A DNA stretch of 64,000 bases from Acidobacteriota bacterium (GTDB lineage Bacteria > Acidobacteriota > Terriglobia > Terriglobales > SCQP01), in assembly GCA_004299485.1 (NCBI GenBank), contig SCQP01000005.1:1-64000 (forward strand). Reading direction: 5' to 3'. Below the pieces are notes generated by a model. The model did not search any database and had not been told where the DNA came from. It saw only the letters and a program-made list of their open reading frames with translations. Positions 54,921 to 60,827 of this stretch are shown piece by piece. The translations under genes were made by a program, and so were the position numbers. Position 1 is the first letter of the stretch, and every line of letters begins with the position of its first letter.

Positions 54921-55265
54921 CTATTTGAAGCTGGCGACGGCGGCGGCTTCGTCGTCGTAGACGTCGAAGACCGTCAGCAGTTTGGTGATCATCAGCAGCT
55001 CGTGGAAGCGCTTGGTGATCGCGGCCAGCTTGATGCGCGCGCCTTTGGAGTTGGCGGTGCTGTACAACCCGACCAAGGCGCCCAAGCCGCTGCTGTCGAT
55101 GAAGTCGACGTTTCCCAAGTTGATCACAATCTTGGTCGTGCCATTCGCCAGCAGACCCTTGACGCTCTCGCGCAGGTCGTTGGTCTCCTGGCCTAAAATG
55201 ATGCGCCCAGCCGCTTCTACGACGGTGACGCCATCAACGGTACGAGTGGTAAGTTTTAAAGCCAC
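54921..55265 (-). CDS. STAS-domain anti-sigma factor antagonist
   Basis: A 114-aa protein: GRIILGQETNDLRESVKGLL and VDFIDSSGLGALVGLYS, where the Ser of DSSG is the phosphorylatable residue of SpoIIAA-type antagonists. Its partner kinase is not in the window. Confidence 0.9.
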   Translation of the reverse strand: MALKLTTRTVDGVTVVEAAGRIILGQETNDLRESVKGLLANGTTKIVINLGNVDFIDSSGLGALVGLYSTANSKGARIKLAAITKRFHELLMITKLLTVFDVYDDEAAAVASFK

Positions 55266-55977: not shown

Positions 55978-56442
55978 CTACAGTTTAGCGGTGTGCTGGC
56001 GCTGGAGGCTCCAGCGCTCCAGACTGAGGCGATAAGGGGGTGGAAACTCGGCGCCCGAACGGCGCGCCAGGATGAGGGTCATGGCCTCTTCGGGCTCGAA
56101 GCCGAGATCGCACAGCACCGCCGCGGCCGCCAGCGGGCCGCGATGAAAACCCGCGGCACAGTGAACGTACAGTTGGGCTTCGGGATGCGCCAGCACCTGC
56201 GCTGCGTAAACGGCCACCCGCTCAAAAAATTCGTCAGGTTTGGGCGCGAAGTCATCCTCGACGGGATTCCACAAGACGTCAAGGCCAACTTCGGCGGCCA
56301 AGGCGGTGTCGTCAAATTCCGACTGGACGTCGATGATGTGAGTGAAGCCGCGGCGCGAAAGCTCGGCCATCGCCTCCAGCGTCCAGACGCCGCCGCCGAC
56401 CGCCAGCCGCTTCGCCAAAATGAAATCCAGATCCACGCACAA
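55978..56442 (-). CDS. Dual-specificity protein phosphatase
   Basis: A 154-aa protein with the Cys-phosphatase loop HCAAGFHRGPLAAAAVL (HCx5R) and an upstream Asp in NPVEDDFAPKPDEF as general acid. Start is TTG at 56442 or GTG at 56436. It should dephosphorylate a protein or small molecule. Same operon as the hemerythrin-like gene. Confidence 0.88.
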   Translation of the reverse strand: MCVDLDFILAKRLAVGGGVWTLEAMAELSRRGFTHIIDVQSEFDDTALAAEVGLDVLWNPVEDDFAPKPDEFFERVAVYAAQVLAHPEAQLYVHCAAGFHRGPLAAAAVLCDLGFEPEEAMTLILARRSGAEFPPPYRLSLERWSLQRQHTAKL

Positions 56443-56517: not shown

Positions 56518-56988
56518 TTAGCGCCGCTTGCGCGCGGCCGATTTCTTGCGCGAGGGCTTGCGCGCCGGCTTGCGCGCCGCACTGCGCTTGGCGGCCGATT
56601 TCCGGGCAGGCTTTTTCGCGGCGGCTTTTTTCGCCGGCCGGGAGGCCTTTTTCGCTGCCGCTTTTTTGGCGGCCGGCCTTGCGGCTTTCTTCTTCGCTGC
56701 AGGCCGCGCGGGCTTTTTCGCGGCGGCTTTTTTCGCCGGCTTCCGCGCCGGCTTCTTCGCCGGCTTCTTCGCCACCGGCTTGCGCGCTGCGGGCGCCGCC
56801 GCTGCGGGCGCCGCCGGCACCGGCACGACCGGCTCGGCGGTGGTCTCGGCAATCACCGCAAACGTGTCGAGCTCATCGCCCTCGTCATCATCGAAGCCGC
56901 TGAGCCGATCATCGCCGAAGCCAAACGGATCGTCGGGATCGCTCGCTGCCGCACACCGGAAATAAAGAGATTCCTGATCGCCTCTCAT
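56518..56988 (-). CDS. Histone H1-like KPA/AKK-repeat protein
   Basis: A 156-aa protein with an acidic N-terminal half (DPDDPFGFGDDRLSGFDDDEG) and a Lys/Arg/Ala/Pro repeat region (AKKPAKKPARKPAKKAAAKK onward, residues about 70-156). The tail resembles eukaryotic H1 and bacterial Hc1/AlgP-like DNA-binding proteins. It likely binds DNA. Shares its composition with the 20-residue peptide at 25287. Confidence 0.85.
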   Translation of the reverse strand: MRGDQESLYFRCAAASDPDDPFGFGDDRLSGFDDDEGDELDTFAVIAETTAEPVVPVPAAPAAAAPAARKPVAKKPAKKPARKPAKKAAAKKPARPAAKKKAARPAAKKAAAKKASRPAKKAAAKKPARKSAAKRSAARKPARKPSRKKSAARKRR

Positions 56989-57187: not shown

Positions 57188-58924
57188 TCATCGGCGGGTT
57201 GAAAACTGCCGCCGCTGCACCCGGTGGGGAAGCGCCAAAGGCGTGCCGGGAGGGGGCGCCTCGGCGCCGCTCAAATGGTTGGCCTGCTGCAAAAGCGGAG
57301 CACTGATCCGGTATTTGTGGGCCAACTCCCGCCACGTCTCGCCGCGCCGGACCCAATGCAGCCGCCAGTACACCCGATCCGGTGCGGGCACCGCCGCCAT
57401 GCCATTTTCGTAAAGTTTCTTAGTGCCACTTGGAATTTTCAGGGTATAACCCTTGGGCACCAGGTAGTGTAGCAGCGCCGGGTTCAGGCGTTGCAAATCT
57501 GCCACAGTCACAGCCGCGCATTCCGCAGCCAGGCGCAAGTCCTCGTTGCTGGTAATTGTCACCTCATCGGGGCTGAGCGCCGGGTCTGGATCGGGATCGG
57601 TTATGCCATAACCGCTGGGATTTTGGGCGATGAGCGCGATGGCCAGAATCACCGGCACGTAGTTGCGCCAACTGCGCGGCAGGGCGCCCATATCGTACAG
57701 CTTGAAGTAATTGGCATAGCCGGTGCGGGCAACGATGCGTTCGATGGTGATCTCGCCGGTGTTGTAGGCGGCCATGGCAAGGTACCAGTTGCCGAACAGG
57801 GTGTAGAGCGACTTGAGATGCTCGGCAGCAGCCCGCGTGGCCATTTCCGGATCGAGCCGTTCGTCCACCCAGTGACTGCGCTTCAGGCCATAGCCTTCAC
57901 CCGTCAGCGCCAGGAATTGCCACATGCCGCGCGCGCCCGCCCGCGACGTTTCCCGCGGGTTAAAGCCGCTCTCCAGTTGTGCCAGGTAAATCAGGTCGGT
58001 AGGAATGCCTTCTTCTGTAAAAATCCGGTCGACCATGGCGCGGTAACGGCCGGCACGGCGAAAGCCCTGCAACAGGTCGCCACGGCCGCGCGTGGTGAAG
58101 TAGTGCACATAGCGCAGGACGGCATCGTTGACGGTCAGCGGCAACTGGCCGCGCCGCTGCCGCGCCAGGGCGACGCGCGCTTTGGCCTCCAGCCGCGCTT
58201 TCGTCTCCGGATCGAGCGGAAAGGTGAGCTGCAGAATCTTCTGCATCGCGCTCTGCGGCGACGCCTGAGAGAAGCCGCCGGCAGGCAGAGCGTCGCTCTC
58301 GAGCGCCTGAATGCGGTCGAGCAGCGAGGTCAACTCGGTGTGGAGTTGTGGCGTGGACGCAATATCGTAGGGGCTCGCCAGCAAGTGGTCCAACGCCGTA
58401 TCAAAGCCCTGACGCGCCTCATCGAGCTGGCCCTCGCGGTACAACTGCAGCGCCGCCTGGTACTGCTGCTCGACGGCAGCCACCAGCGCGCGGACGTCAT
58501 CGTCATCCTGCGGCGCTGGGACCGGCGCGGCACTGATGACCTTAGGGGGCGTGGCGATGGCCGGCGACGGACGAGCGGGCGTCAGCACCTGGGCGGCGGG
58601 CGCCGGGGTGACCGGTGCACTAGCGCTCGGCGCGGGCGGTGCGGGCTTGGGCGTACGCACGTGACAGCCGAGTCCGCCGCCCACCAGCACGATCAAACCC
58701 AGCAATGCCCAGACGCGGGGGCGGCGCCGTTGGCACTTTCGGCTAGGTCGGCGCGGGAGGTCGAGAAATTCACGCAGCGGCGACCCGCCCCCGGCAAGCA
58801 ACGAGGCACCGGCCCGGCCGGGCTGGGGCTCCCGGGGCCCCCAGCCCGGCCGAGCGTCAAGCGGGTGGCGTGGCGCAGCCACGCCAGGCCCCGCGCCAGT
58901 CAAAGTATTCCCGCATGCTCGCAT
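57188..58924 (-). CDS. MltD-like lytic transglycosylase with LysM domain
   Basis: A 578-aa membrane-anchored enzyme. Helix VWALLGLIVLVGGGLGC ends in a lipobox-like GGLGC; the SLT domain has IYLAQLESGFNPRETSRAGA (catalytic Glu) and GMWQFLALTGEGYGL, LAMAAYNTGE. A LysM region (WVRRGETWRELAHKYRISA) closes it. It cuts peptidoglycan without water. Start ATG 58924 or TTG 58939; about 75 residues before the helix are read through the GC-rich repeat. Confidence 0.9.
   Translation of the reverse strand: MRACGNTLTGAGPGVAAPRHPLDARPGWGPREPQPGRAGASLLAGGGSPLREFLDLPRRPSRKCQRRRPRVWALLGLIVLVGGGLGCHVRTPKPAPPAPSASAPVTPAPAAQVLTPARPSPAIATPPKVISAAPVPAPQDDDDVRALVAAVEQQYQAALQLYREGQLDEARQGFDTALDHLLASPYDIASTPQLHTELTSLLDRIQALESDALPAGGFSQASPQSAMQKILQLTFPLDPETKARLEAKARVALARQRRGQLPLTVNDAVLRYVHYFTTRGRGDLLQGFRRAGRYRAMVDRIFTEEGIPTDLIYLAQLESGFNPRETSRAGARGMWQFLALTGEGYGLKRSHWVDERLDPEMATRAAAEHLKSLYTLFGNWYLAMAAYNTGEITIERIVARTGYANYFKLYDMGALPRSWRNYVPVILAIALIAQNPSGYGITDPDPDPALSPDEVTITSNEDLRLAAECAAVTVADLQRLNPALLHYLVPKGYTLKIPSGTKKLYENGMAAVPAPDRVYWRLHWVRRGETWRELAHKYRISAPLLQQANHLSGAEAPPPGTPLALPHRVQRRQFSTRR
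58859..58898 (+). repeat. GC-rich palindromic interspersed repeat, copy B, inside the mltD N-terminus
   Basis: AAGCGGGTGGCGTGGCGCAG then CCACGCCAGGCCCCGCGCCA, with a longer left part (58825-58858) shared with copy A in nadD. It lies on the antisense strand of the mltD 5' region. Confidence 0.75.
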
Positions 58925-58935
58925 CGACGCTCGGC

Positions 58936-60000
58936 TCAAGCCCTCTGCGGCAGTATGGCAGAGTGGCCCGGGGCCGTGCGCGGTGGCGCCGTCAGGCGGG
59001 CAGCGGCGCGCCGGCCCGGCTCCTGATCGAGCGGGCGGCGCAGCAGGGGTGGCAGACAGGGCATGCGCCGCACGGCGGTCTGCGCCGCATCGAGCGATGC
59101 GAGCACTTCCGTTTCGCTGCGCTGCGTCAACTGCGCCAGCTCTTTCGGCCGGAAGCCCTCGAGCAGATACAAGACCAGATCATGCCGCTGCTGGCGTGGC
59201 AGGGGCCGAATGGCATCCACCAGGCGCTTGAGGCTCTCGGTGGCGTAGGCATTTTCTTCCGGATCGGCCTGGGCCGCCGCCAAGTGGTCCTCGAGCCGCT
59301 CCGACTCCGCAATATCGTCCCCGTCCAGCGATAGCTCGCTCGCGGTTTCCTCGAGTGAAAGCAGGGTTTGGCCGTGGCGCGTTTCGCCATAGGCTTTGGT
59401 CAGGCTGCGGATCGCAGCCGCACTTAGCAGCAAGAGCCAACGGCCGCGGTGCAGCTCCTGCTCCACCGGGCGGGCGTCCAGCGCCGCCACCACGACTTCA
59501 TTCAATACTTCGGCGGGATCGAGCCAGCCGCGCGGCAGCTCGCCCAAACTCTCCCGTAGGTTAATCTGGCGCTTCACGAAAGCCAGCAGATGTTCGTAGT
59601 GGCCGCCAAAATAGGCAGCCAAATCCGCTTGCCGTTCCGCTGCTGCTTTCGGTGCCGCCAGGTAACTGCCGCGGTGGAGCGGGATGCGGAAGCGCGGCCG
59701 GGTTTCCCGCAACCGCTGTTTGTGCCGGTTCAACTGTCGGACCAGATCATCACTGGCCGTACGCAAGGCCACTTGCGCGCTGGCGGACGTGTTCTCGCTG
59801 CTCAACTGGCCGGTGGGCAGATGCAGATTGAGCCGGCAGGAAACGCCCTCGCGGCTGGTGTGCCGCACCAGCCGCCCCTGCAATTGCACCAATTCCGGCT
59901 GAAAGACCAGCAACAGCGGCTCCAGCTTGTGCTGAAAGCGCTCCATGATGCGATGGAGTTCGGGCGAATGGGGCACTTGCAAGGTGATGTGAAGGTTCAT
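58936..60000 (-). CDS. HPF/RaiA-like domain fused to sigma-70-like regions 2 and 4
   Basis: A 354-aa protein starting MNLHITLQVPHSPELHRIME at the ATG at 60000 (GGAGGCAG upstream). Residues 1-100 form an S30AE (ribosome hibernation) domain: LHLPTGQLSSENTSASAQVA, then DLVRQLNRHKQRLRE. Residues 125-205 resemble sigma region 2 (YFGGHYEHLLAFVKRQINLR, GWLDPAEVLNEVVVAALDA). Residues 255-312 resemble region 4 (PLPRQQRHDLVLYLLEGFRP, ELAQLTQRSETEVLASLDAA). HPF domains bind the 30S subunit; a sigma domain in the same chain implies a link between ribosome inactivation and transcription. It is between DUF697-like and mltD genes, overlapping or close to both. Confidence 0.82.
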   Translation of the reverse strand: MNLHITLQVPHSPELHRIMERFQHKLEPLLLVFQPELVQLQGRLVRHTSREGVSCRLNLHLPTGQLSSENTSASAQVALRTASDDLVRQLNRHKQRLRETRPRFRIPLHRGSYLAAPKAAAERQADLAAYFGGHYEHLLAFVKRQINLRESLGELPRGWLDPAEVLNEVVVAALDARPVEQELHRGRWLLLLSAAAIRSLTKAYGETRHGQTLLSLEETASELSLDGDDIAESERLEDHLAAAQADPEENAYATESLKRLVDAIRPLPRQQRHDLVLYLLEGFRPKELAQLTQRSETEVLASLDAAQTAVRRMPCLPPLLRRPLDQEPGRRAAARLTAPPRTAPGHSAILPQRA

Positions 60001-60017
60001 ACTGCCTCCTCCTGTTC

Positions 60018-60827
60018 TTACGCAATTTGACGCTCGACCGGAGCTGGCTGGGTGCGCAGGAATTTTCGGCGCGGCTGGAACGCCGCACCGCGCGCTGGCG
60101 CCTGATAGCGCCACAAGGCAGCGCCGACGGCAAGCGAACCCGAATAGGCAATACCGGACTTGGCGGCCAGGCCATAGCCGGCAGGGATCAGACCCACGAG
60201 TTCGCGTGCCAGGGTTCGCCATCCGAGGGCGCCGGCCAGCACCAGGCCGACGCGGCCGGATTGTGCCCGCCAGCCTATGGGCTCATCGTGCAAGGCCGCC
60301 AGCTCAAACGCCAGGCCAACCTGATTGGCGGTAATGAGCACCGTGTCGGAACCCATCTCGCCCAGGGCCAGAACGAGGCTGAGCGGATTGGGAACGACTT
60401 CGGGCAGGGCGCTGATGGCGGCAATGGCGGCGTTGCGCGAGGCTAACGCCTGGATCAAATCGCGGGCCAGCAGGCGGCGCAGCGGCGCAAAAATTCGGCC
60501 CAGGGCCAGCCGATAGGGGGCGTACACGCGGAGCAACTCCCGCAGGCCGGCATCGGGGTCATGCGGATCGAGCACGACGCCGGCGCCGCTCGTTCCGGGG
60601 TCGCGGACCAGGATTTCAGCGGCCTCGCCGGGCGCGACAAGGTGCTCGCCGGCGCGCGTACGCTCGGGGCCGGTAATCTCGTCGGGAATAAGAATGCGGC
60701 ACAGGGCTTCGCGGCCGGCGTCATCGGCGGCGCGCACCTCCAGCCGGAAATGCCGGTGCGCCTGCTGGCGAATGCGCGATGGTTTCAACGAACGCGCCTG
60801 GTGTAGGCCCTGTTTCCATGCACCCAT
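60018..60827 (-). CDS. DUF697-like protein with Gly-rich C-terminal membrane segments
   Basis: A 269-aa protein: a basic N-terminus, central ISALPEVVPNPLSLVLALGE with LITANQVGLAFELAAL, and the DUF697-like end GLIPAGYGLAAKSGIAYSG followed by SLAVGAALWRY. Such domains occur in membrane-associated and GTPase-coupled proteins. No P-loop is seen. It precedes the HPF-sigma gene by 17 bp, so an operon is likely. Confidence 0.75.
   Translation of the reverse strand: MGAWKQGLHQARSLKPSRIRQQAHRHFRLEVRAADDAGREALCRILIPDEITGPERTRAGEHLVAPGEAAEILVRDPGTSGAGVVLDPHDPDAGLRELLRVYAPYRLALGRIFAPLRRLLARDLIQALASRNAAIAAISALPEVVPNPLSLVLALGEMGSDTVLITANQVGLAFELAALHDEPIGWRAQSGRVGLVLAGALGWRTLARELVGLIPAGYGLAAKSGIAYSGSLAVGAALWRYQAPARGAAFQPRRKFLRTQPAPVERQIA

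Follow-up and report, generated by a model that had tools for sequence, protein, structure and literature searches.

What kind of protein is made when a ribosome-hibernation domain and a sigma-factor-like module share one reading frame, and does its gene form a functional unit with the genes on either side? This question is raised by a locus in a 64,000-nucleotide (nt) stretch of Acidobacteriota DNA (the window: contig SCQP01000005.1 of assembly GCA_004299485.1, positions 1 to 64,000). A sequence-only reading had described three co-oriented genes, the middle one coding for a hibernation-promoting factor (HPF) joined to a sigma-like part, as an operon that may link envelope remodelling to translational shutdown. 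Both the arrangement (minus-strand open reading frames, ORFs, at 60018-60827, 58936-60000 and 57188-58939) and the fusion, which we call HPF-sigma, were confirmed. Taking all its parts together, we consider it reasonably probable that the middle gene specifies a hybrid ribosome-hibernation factor carrying a protein-docking pseudo-sigma module.

The middle gene fuses an HPF domain to an ECF-like sigma module

The HPF-sigma gene (58936-60000, minus strand) encodes 354 amino acids (aa). An S30AE/HPF domain (aa 1-98; 59707-60000, minus strand) is followed by a variable linker and by a sigma2-sigma4-like module (59065-59625, minus strand) with the layout of extracytoplasmic function (ECF) sigma factors, sigma2 lying at aa ~126-203 and sigma4 at aa ~247-312. 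The protein matched PF02482 with an E-value of 5e-5 and 24.4 bits, against a curated cut-off of 23.7 (27.2 bits in the genome search), and TIGR02937 over residues 160-299 with an E-value of 1.4e-7, under the curated cut-off of that model. A profile built from 50 relatives found ribosome-hibernation factors with its N-terminal part (best E 0.0017) and sigmaE and other ECF structures with its C-terminal part (E about 5e-10); the TIGR02937 and Protein Data Bank (PDB) ECF matches together identify the sigma2-sigma4 domain pair of ECF sigma factors.

The AlphaFold (AF2) model of HPF-sigma has a mean confidence score (pLDDT) of 79, with blocks of 85-98 in the HPF domain. In structural alignments of this model, the HPF half superposed on 4hei (Z 13.9, root mean square deviation 1.7 Å, 88 aligned) and on 8rd8 (Z 13.4, 1.8 Å, 98 aligned), and the sigma4 half on sigma region 4 from the PDB (Z about 10.4, 1.9 Å, 74 aligned). 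Since profiles, model and structural alignment all back both halves, we conclude that HPF-sigma is a true fusion. Chance joining through misassembly was ruled out, as separately assembled genomes of many genera, in two phyla, show the same two-part design. We found no published HPF-sigma fusion in the literature accessible to our search, most subscription journals lying outside its coverage.

The protein shares with HPF, RaiA (YfiA) and long HPF (PF02482) the S30AE fold and a conserved basic helix. Residues K25, Q89, H93, K94 and R98 are invariant, the window protein keeping K25 and the whole helix-2 signature (Q89, R/K92, H93, K94, R98), and we predict from the fold and these basic residues that HPF-sigma binds ribosomes. 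Long HPF carries a C-terminal dimerisation domain; HPF-sigma has the sigma2-sigma4-like module instead, and gave no match to S30AE_C in Pfam.

The sigma-like module lacks the residues typical of active sigma factors

Is the second half a working sigma factor? We compared it with 13 ordinary ECF sigma factors of the same phylum and with E. coli sigmaE. The glutamine of region 2.2, which we take to be a contact with core RNA polymerase (RNAP), was present in 12 of the 13 control ECFs and missing from all 79 family sequences, which carry Asp (69), Asn (6) or another residue (4) instead. The recognition helix, whose basic character presumably serves to contact the -35 element, typically reads TV[KR]SRxxRxR in the controls, with a mean charge of +3.5. 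In HPF-sigma it is uncharged or acidic (group means -1.3 to +0.6); the window protein has TEVLASLDAAQ, without the basic signature. Because both signatures are lost, we regard the module as a probable 'pseudo-sigma' for protein docking rather than an active sigma factor. Within the family, mean identity is 51% in the sigma-like part and 60% in the HPF part; the sigma-like part is therefore under selection and not simply decaying.

Among the other ways to read this module, an authentic ECF sigma factor fares best. In such a scheme the HPF part would keep its sigma partner parked on idle ribosomes until release, after which the sigma part would direct RNAP to stress genes. The model contains both sigma domains in folded form, the helix-turn-helix profile matches are to true ECFs, and ECFs with N-terminal extensions exist (PMC8103513). 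Set against this are the absence of both signatures across the family, the variation of those positions among orthologues, and the lack of any anti-sigma gene or target operon at the locus. HPF-sigma thus shares the sigma2-sigma4 fold and helix-turn-helix homology of sigmaE-type ECFs, including those with regulatory extensions, but we do not file it with them, since the two defining signatures are lacking; an HPF-domain extension is not described in the ECF reviews PMC8999054 and PMC8103513. On balance, authentic sigma activity is unlikely.

PhyR offers another instance of a sigma fold in a non-sigma protein. A PhyR-like anti-anti-sigma factor would titrate an anti-sigma factor during stress and free the real sigma, while the HPF half silences ribosomes; a sigma fold stripped of its DNA-contact residues fits this, and PhyR_sigma-like (PF22233) was the better-scoring sigma-type Pfam match of two proteins, that of the window (E 1.3e-4) and a Burkholderia homologue (1.1e-5, with PhyR_sigma2 at 6e-4), all below cut-off. 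The PhyR partner NepR, however, was found in none of 41 genomes while a Caulobacter control was positive, HPF-sigma has no receiver domain, and no anti-sigma factor was identified nearby, making this scheme quite unlikely.

It is highly unlikely that the module is a structural spacer or ribosome-dimerising element standing in for the C-terminal domain of long HPF, its sigma fold merely inherited: the absence of any long HPF found in the window's family and of an S30AE_C match in the fusion would suit it, but the sigma-specific residues W188, E164, V165, E168, G282 and F283 are kept, beyond what a spacer needs.

HPF-sigma is the only S30AE protein found in the window's family

A search of genome contigs gave 120 confirmed HPF-sigma loci in other genomes, all acidobacterial among the 80 matches listed. 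Of 396 genomes drawn from the whole phylum, about 23 gave long matches; the distribution of the fusion in Acidobacteriota is patchy. Within the GTDB family of the window, a PF02482 search found the fusion as the only S30AE protein in 13 of 14 genomes, including 7/7 of high quality; the incomplete genome G004 has none and G002 has two copies. The second copy in G002 (L072, C24) adjoins an MltD reading frame split in two, which may reflect mixed strains or a duplicated locus.

All 27 sister-family genomes searched have an S30AE match over cut-off. Those with the fusion also have a stand-alone S30AE protein, and in G040 only the stand-alone protein passes the threshold. Other acidobacterial families include genomes where no S30AE protein other than the fusion was found (e.g. 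G047, G257, G250 and G236) and others in which it occurs beside a separate HPF. Since our search of the window's family turned up no S30AE protein besides the fusion, the fusion has probably replaced the canonical HPF there and does the whole HPF job. Fold, conserved residues and sole-HPF status together lead us to predict with considerable confidence that the HPF half silences ribosomes.

Orf11 of heat-resistance islands is a homologue of HPF-sigma

Searching plasmids with tblastn, we found that residues 18-160 of the window protein match proteins annotated 'sigma-70' or 'FliA'. The sister-family protein, matched along about 70% of its length, found the same alpha- and betaproteobacterial set with E-values down to 7e-17. 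These plasmid proteins give PF02482 and Sigma70_r4 matches near or above cut-off, and they are encoded in islands with Hsp20, FtsH, a ClpK-like AAA ATPase, HdeD, a rhomboid protease, TrxC and a cation:proton antiporter. In Burkholderiales plasmids, the homologue lies between Hsp20 genes and a groES-groEL-dnaK set (L234:7001-8128 and L248:5986-7137).

A second search round extended the set to 87 plasmid records, including Klebsiella, Acinetobacter and E. coli. The E. coli match is a hypothetical protein between hdeD-GI and trx-GI. We identify the match of the E. coli and Klebsiella type as orf11 of the transmissible locus of stress tolerance (tLST), also known as the locus of heat resistance (LHR) or TLPQC (PMC8290217, PMC8407380), because its place fits the published order hdeD-orf11-trx-kefB (PMC8290217). 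Homologues occupy the orf11 position on E. coli and Enterobacter plasmids (L233:9001-10146 and L235:9001-10146), and DNA like tLST orf11 occurs in 152 of 5,426 complete E. coli genomes.

Alignment of the acidobacterial and proteobacterial sets with hhalign gave a probability of 99.9% and an E-value of 1.3e-35 over 327 columns. A linker motif between sigma2 and sigma4, F[HY]QPD, is found in 30/40 sister-family sequences, 10/18 distant acidobacterial sequences and 4/7 proteobacterial sequences, and in none from the window's family or the control ECFs. Judged by these comparisons, Orf11 is a full-length homologue of acidobacterial HPF-sigma, the alphaproteobacterial versions having the same two-part architecture. 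It differs in its setting, a mobile heat-resistance island, and in the divergence of the enterobacterial copies, whose HPF half falls below Pfam detection: Pfam gives a weak Sigma70_r4_2 match alone for the enterobacterial copy, and its HPF half rests on alignment to the alphaproteobacterial copies. According to earlier reports, the Orf11 product shares under 30% identity with every protein whose function is known, and LHR2 carries an interrupted copy of the gene (PMC5383660).

One of the seven proteobacterial sequences, from an Azospirillum plasmid gene annotated 'sigma factor' (L250:4908-5579), matched the sigma-like part only and is possibly a stand-alone pseudo-sigma. Its neighbours include DnaJ/CbpM, TrxC, USP and DegQ genes.

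The neighbours of HPF-sigma change between lineages

We examined 14 HPF-sigma loci from the 14 genomes of the window's GTDB family. The order first gene, HPF-sigma, MltD recurs at 7/14 of them and HPF-sigma adjoins MltD at 13/14, so the three genes are indeed neighbours in related genomes; neither the order nor the adjacency was seen outside this family, and the arrangement is not a broadly conserved unit. In three genomes of one genus (G006, G011 and G013) the first gene is on another contig, in G008 and G012 it was not found, and in G007 MltD lies about 37 kb from HPF-sigma.

The sister family pairs HPF-sigma with baeRF10 rather than with MltD: of the 68 loci whose downstream sequence is long enough, 61 have baeRF10 immediately downstream of the fusion. 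A search of relatives found baeRF10 in 4/5 sister-family genomes with a full-length fusion and in two more without the fusion, and never in the window's family. In the accessible part of Burroughs and Aravind (2019, PMC6514570), baeRF families are tied to HPF by gene neighbourhood, with joint translational shutdown proposed; sister-family HPF-sigma likewise sits by baeRF10, but the HPF reported in that part has no sigma fusion, and the window's family differs in lacking baeRF10. A third acidobacterial group has neighbours resembling YhaM-type exoribonuclease and aminotransferase genes, as judged by eye from the sequences.

The third gene is MltD-like, as first read: its product is a lipoprotein with an SLT catalytic domain (PF01464, 1.4e-23) and LysM (PF01476, 3e-5), a lipobox being visible in the translation, and it matches PRK10783 with an E-value of 1.2e-33 and 116 bits, under the equivalog cut-off of 508. 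Homologues are present in 41/41 genomes searched, whether or not they have HPF-sigma.

The first gene (60018-60827, minus strand; 269 aa) had been read as a membrane-associated, DUF697-like protein, and neither description found support. DUF697 was rejected, because searching the genome and its relatives with PF05128 gave nothing here at E<=1. A Pfam scan of the gene and five orthologues gave no match at E<=1, and the gene has no NCBIfam match and no convincing transmembrane segment by hydropathy. We claim no fold for it, because a PDB search with its AF2 model (pLDDT 72) gave no match at E<=0.001. Among the 41 genomes searched, its orthologues are confined to the window's family.

Do these genes form a unit that couples envelope remodelling to translational shutdown? 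Their tight spacing and recurrence within the family speak for it. Against it stand the absence of the order from the loci seen outside the family, the universality of MltD and its separation from HPF-sigma in G007 and the sister family, the first gene's presence elsewhere in three genomes and failure to turn up in two, and its lack of a membrane or DUF697 signature. We give this proposal very little credence.

Gene starts and a dispersed repeat at the locus

The 17-nt gap between the first gene and HPF-sigma was correctly read, and it contains a Shine-Dalgarno-like sequence, AGGAGGAGG (60005-60013, minus strand), immediately 5′ of the HPF-sigma ATG. The start is placed at 60000 and not at 60222, the first ATG of the ORF. 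The supposed overlap with MltD was not upheld, being produced by the longest MltD ORF, which begins at TTG 58939 and runs through a dispersed GC-rich repeat. A copy of this repeat (58712-58903, no strand assigned) lies in frame at the start of the ORF, where it makes up residues 13-76 of the TTG-started version, and contains a palindrome with 22-bp arms (58812-58855). About 40 copies of about 88-192 bp occur in the window genome (G000), many of them 90-99% identical across an 88-bp core; the RNA fold of the repeat was not clearly more stable than that of shuffled sequences (z -1). Translation of MltD might begin at ATG 58924, 11 nt past the HPF-sigma stop, or within the repeat. The former is likelier, placing the minus-strand gene at 57188-58924, and the simplest reading is that the 192-bp repeat went in frame into the signal-peptide region after this ATG.

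In two congeners (G003 and G001), the HPF-sigma/MltD junction is TGAATG. These junctions and the tight gaps make it plausible that the first gene, HPF-sigma and MltD are co-transcribed in the window's lineage, as neighbours and not as obligate partners. The region has no sigma-70-type promoter-like site, and terminator-like sites are no more frequent than in shuffled sequences; we therefore do not claim a transcript.

A dual-specificity-phosphatase-like (DSPc) gene (55978-56442, minus strand; PF00782, 1.5e-8) follows downstream of MltD, as it does at most family loci (family fam3, 10 other loci). Between the two lies a 156-aa ORF (56518-56988) whose N-terminal part is acidic and whose tail, rich in lysine and alanine, resembles histone H1 (HC2 matches weakly, E 0.49). 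A STAS gene is present at 54921-55265 of the window; two genomes from a different acidobacterial family have a STAS-domain-like gene of the anti-anti-sigma type directly after HPF-sigma (L215:5096-5497 and L201:5393-5734).

Proposed mechanism and implications

We propose that the N-terminal HPF domain of HPF-sigma would sit in the decoding channel of the 30S subunit, silencing and protecting ribosomes under stress. The C-terminal module retains the ECF sigma2-sigma4 fold without the residues with which ordinary sigma factors grip core RNAP or read the -35 element, and would not itself select promoters. Most probably it acts through protein contacts, either tethering the HPF half on the ribosome to a partner on the transcription side (core RNAP or an anti-sigma factor) or mediating assembly; what we say of its partner and action is put forward with less assurance than the silencing of ribosomes.

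Several points weigh against our proposal. Loss of consensus residues is not proof of lost sigma activity, because ECF groups vary in their contact residues, and sister-family members retain an arginine at two recognition-helix positions. Sole-HPF status comes partly from draft metagenome-assembled genomes, whose incompleteness weakens single absences; the family-wide pattern takes in genomes that are 95-99% complete. Finally, the deletions reported to lower heat or chlorine resistance in E. coli do not include that of orf11 (PMC8407380). A role of orf11 could be hidden there by the HPF and RaiA that the host itself makes.

A further step, which we offer tentatively and regard as doubtful, is a two-armed stress factor, also island-borne as Orf11, with one arm (HPF) silencing the ribosome and the other (pseudo-sigma) binding core RNAP or an anti-sigma factor. 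If this were true, one protein would restrain translation and transcription together.

The nearest precedent for a fused HPF domain is archaeal HibA (PMC13324472), in which the domain is joined to a CBS module and acts in hibernation; it differs in that its CBS module is N-terminal, it has no sigma module and it belongs to Archaea. HPF-sigma would thus be a second kind of HPF fusion, and the window's family one in which this fusion is the sole S30AE protein found. Our analysis also supplies a predicted identity for orf11 of the tLST/LHR heat- and chlorine-resistance island, and it makes a physical coupling of ribosome hibernation and RNA polymerase regulation testable.

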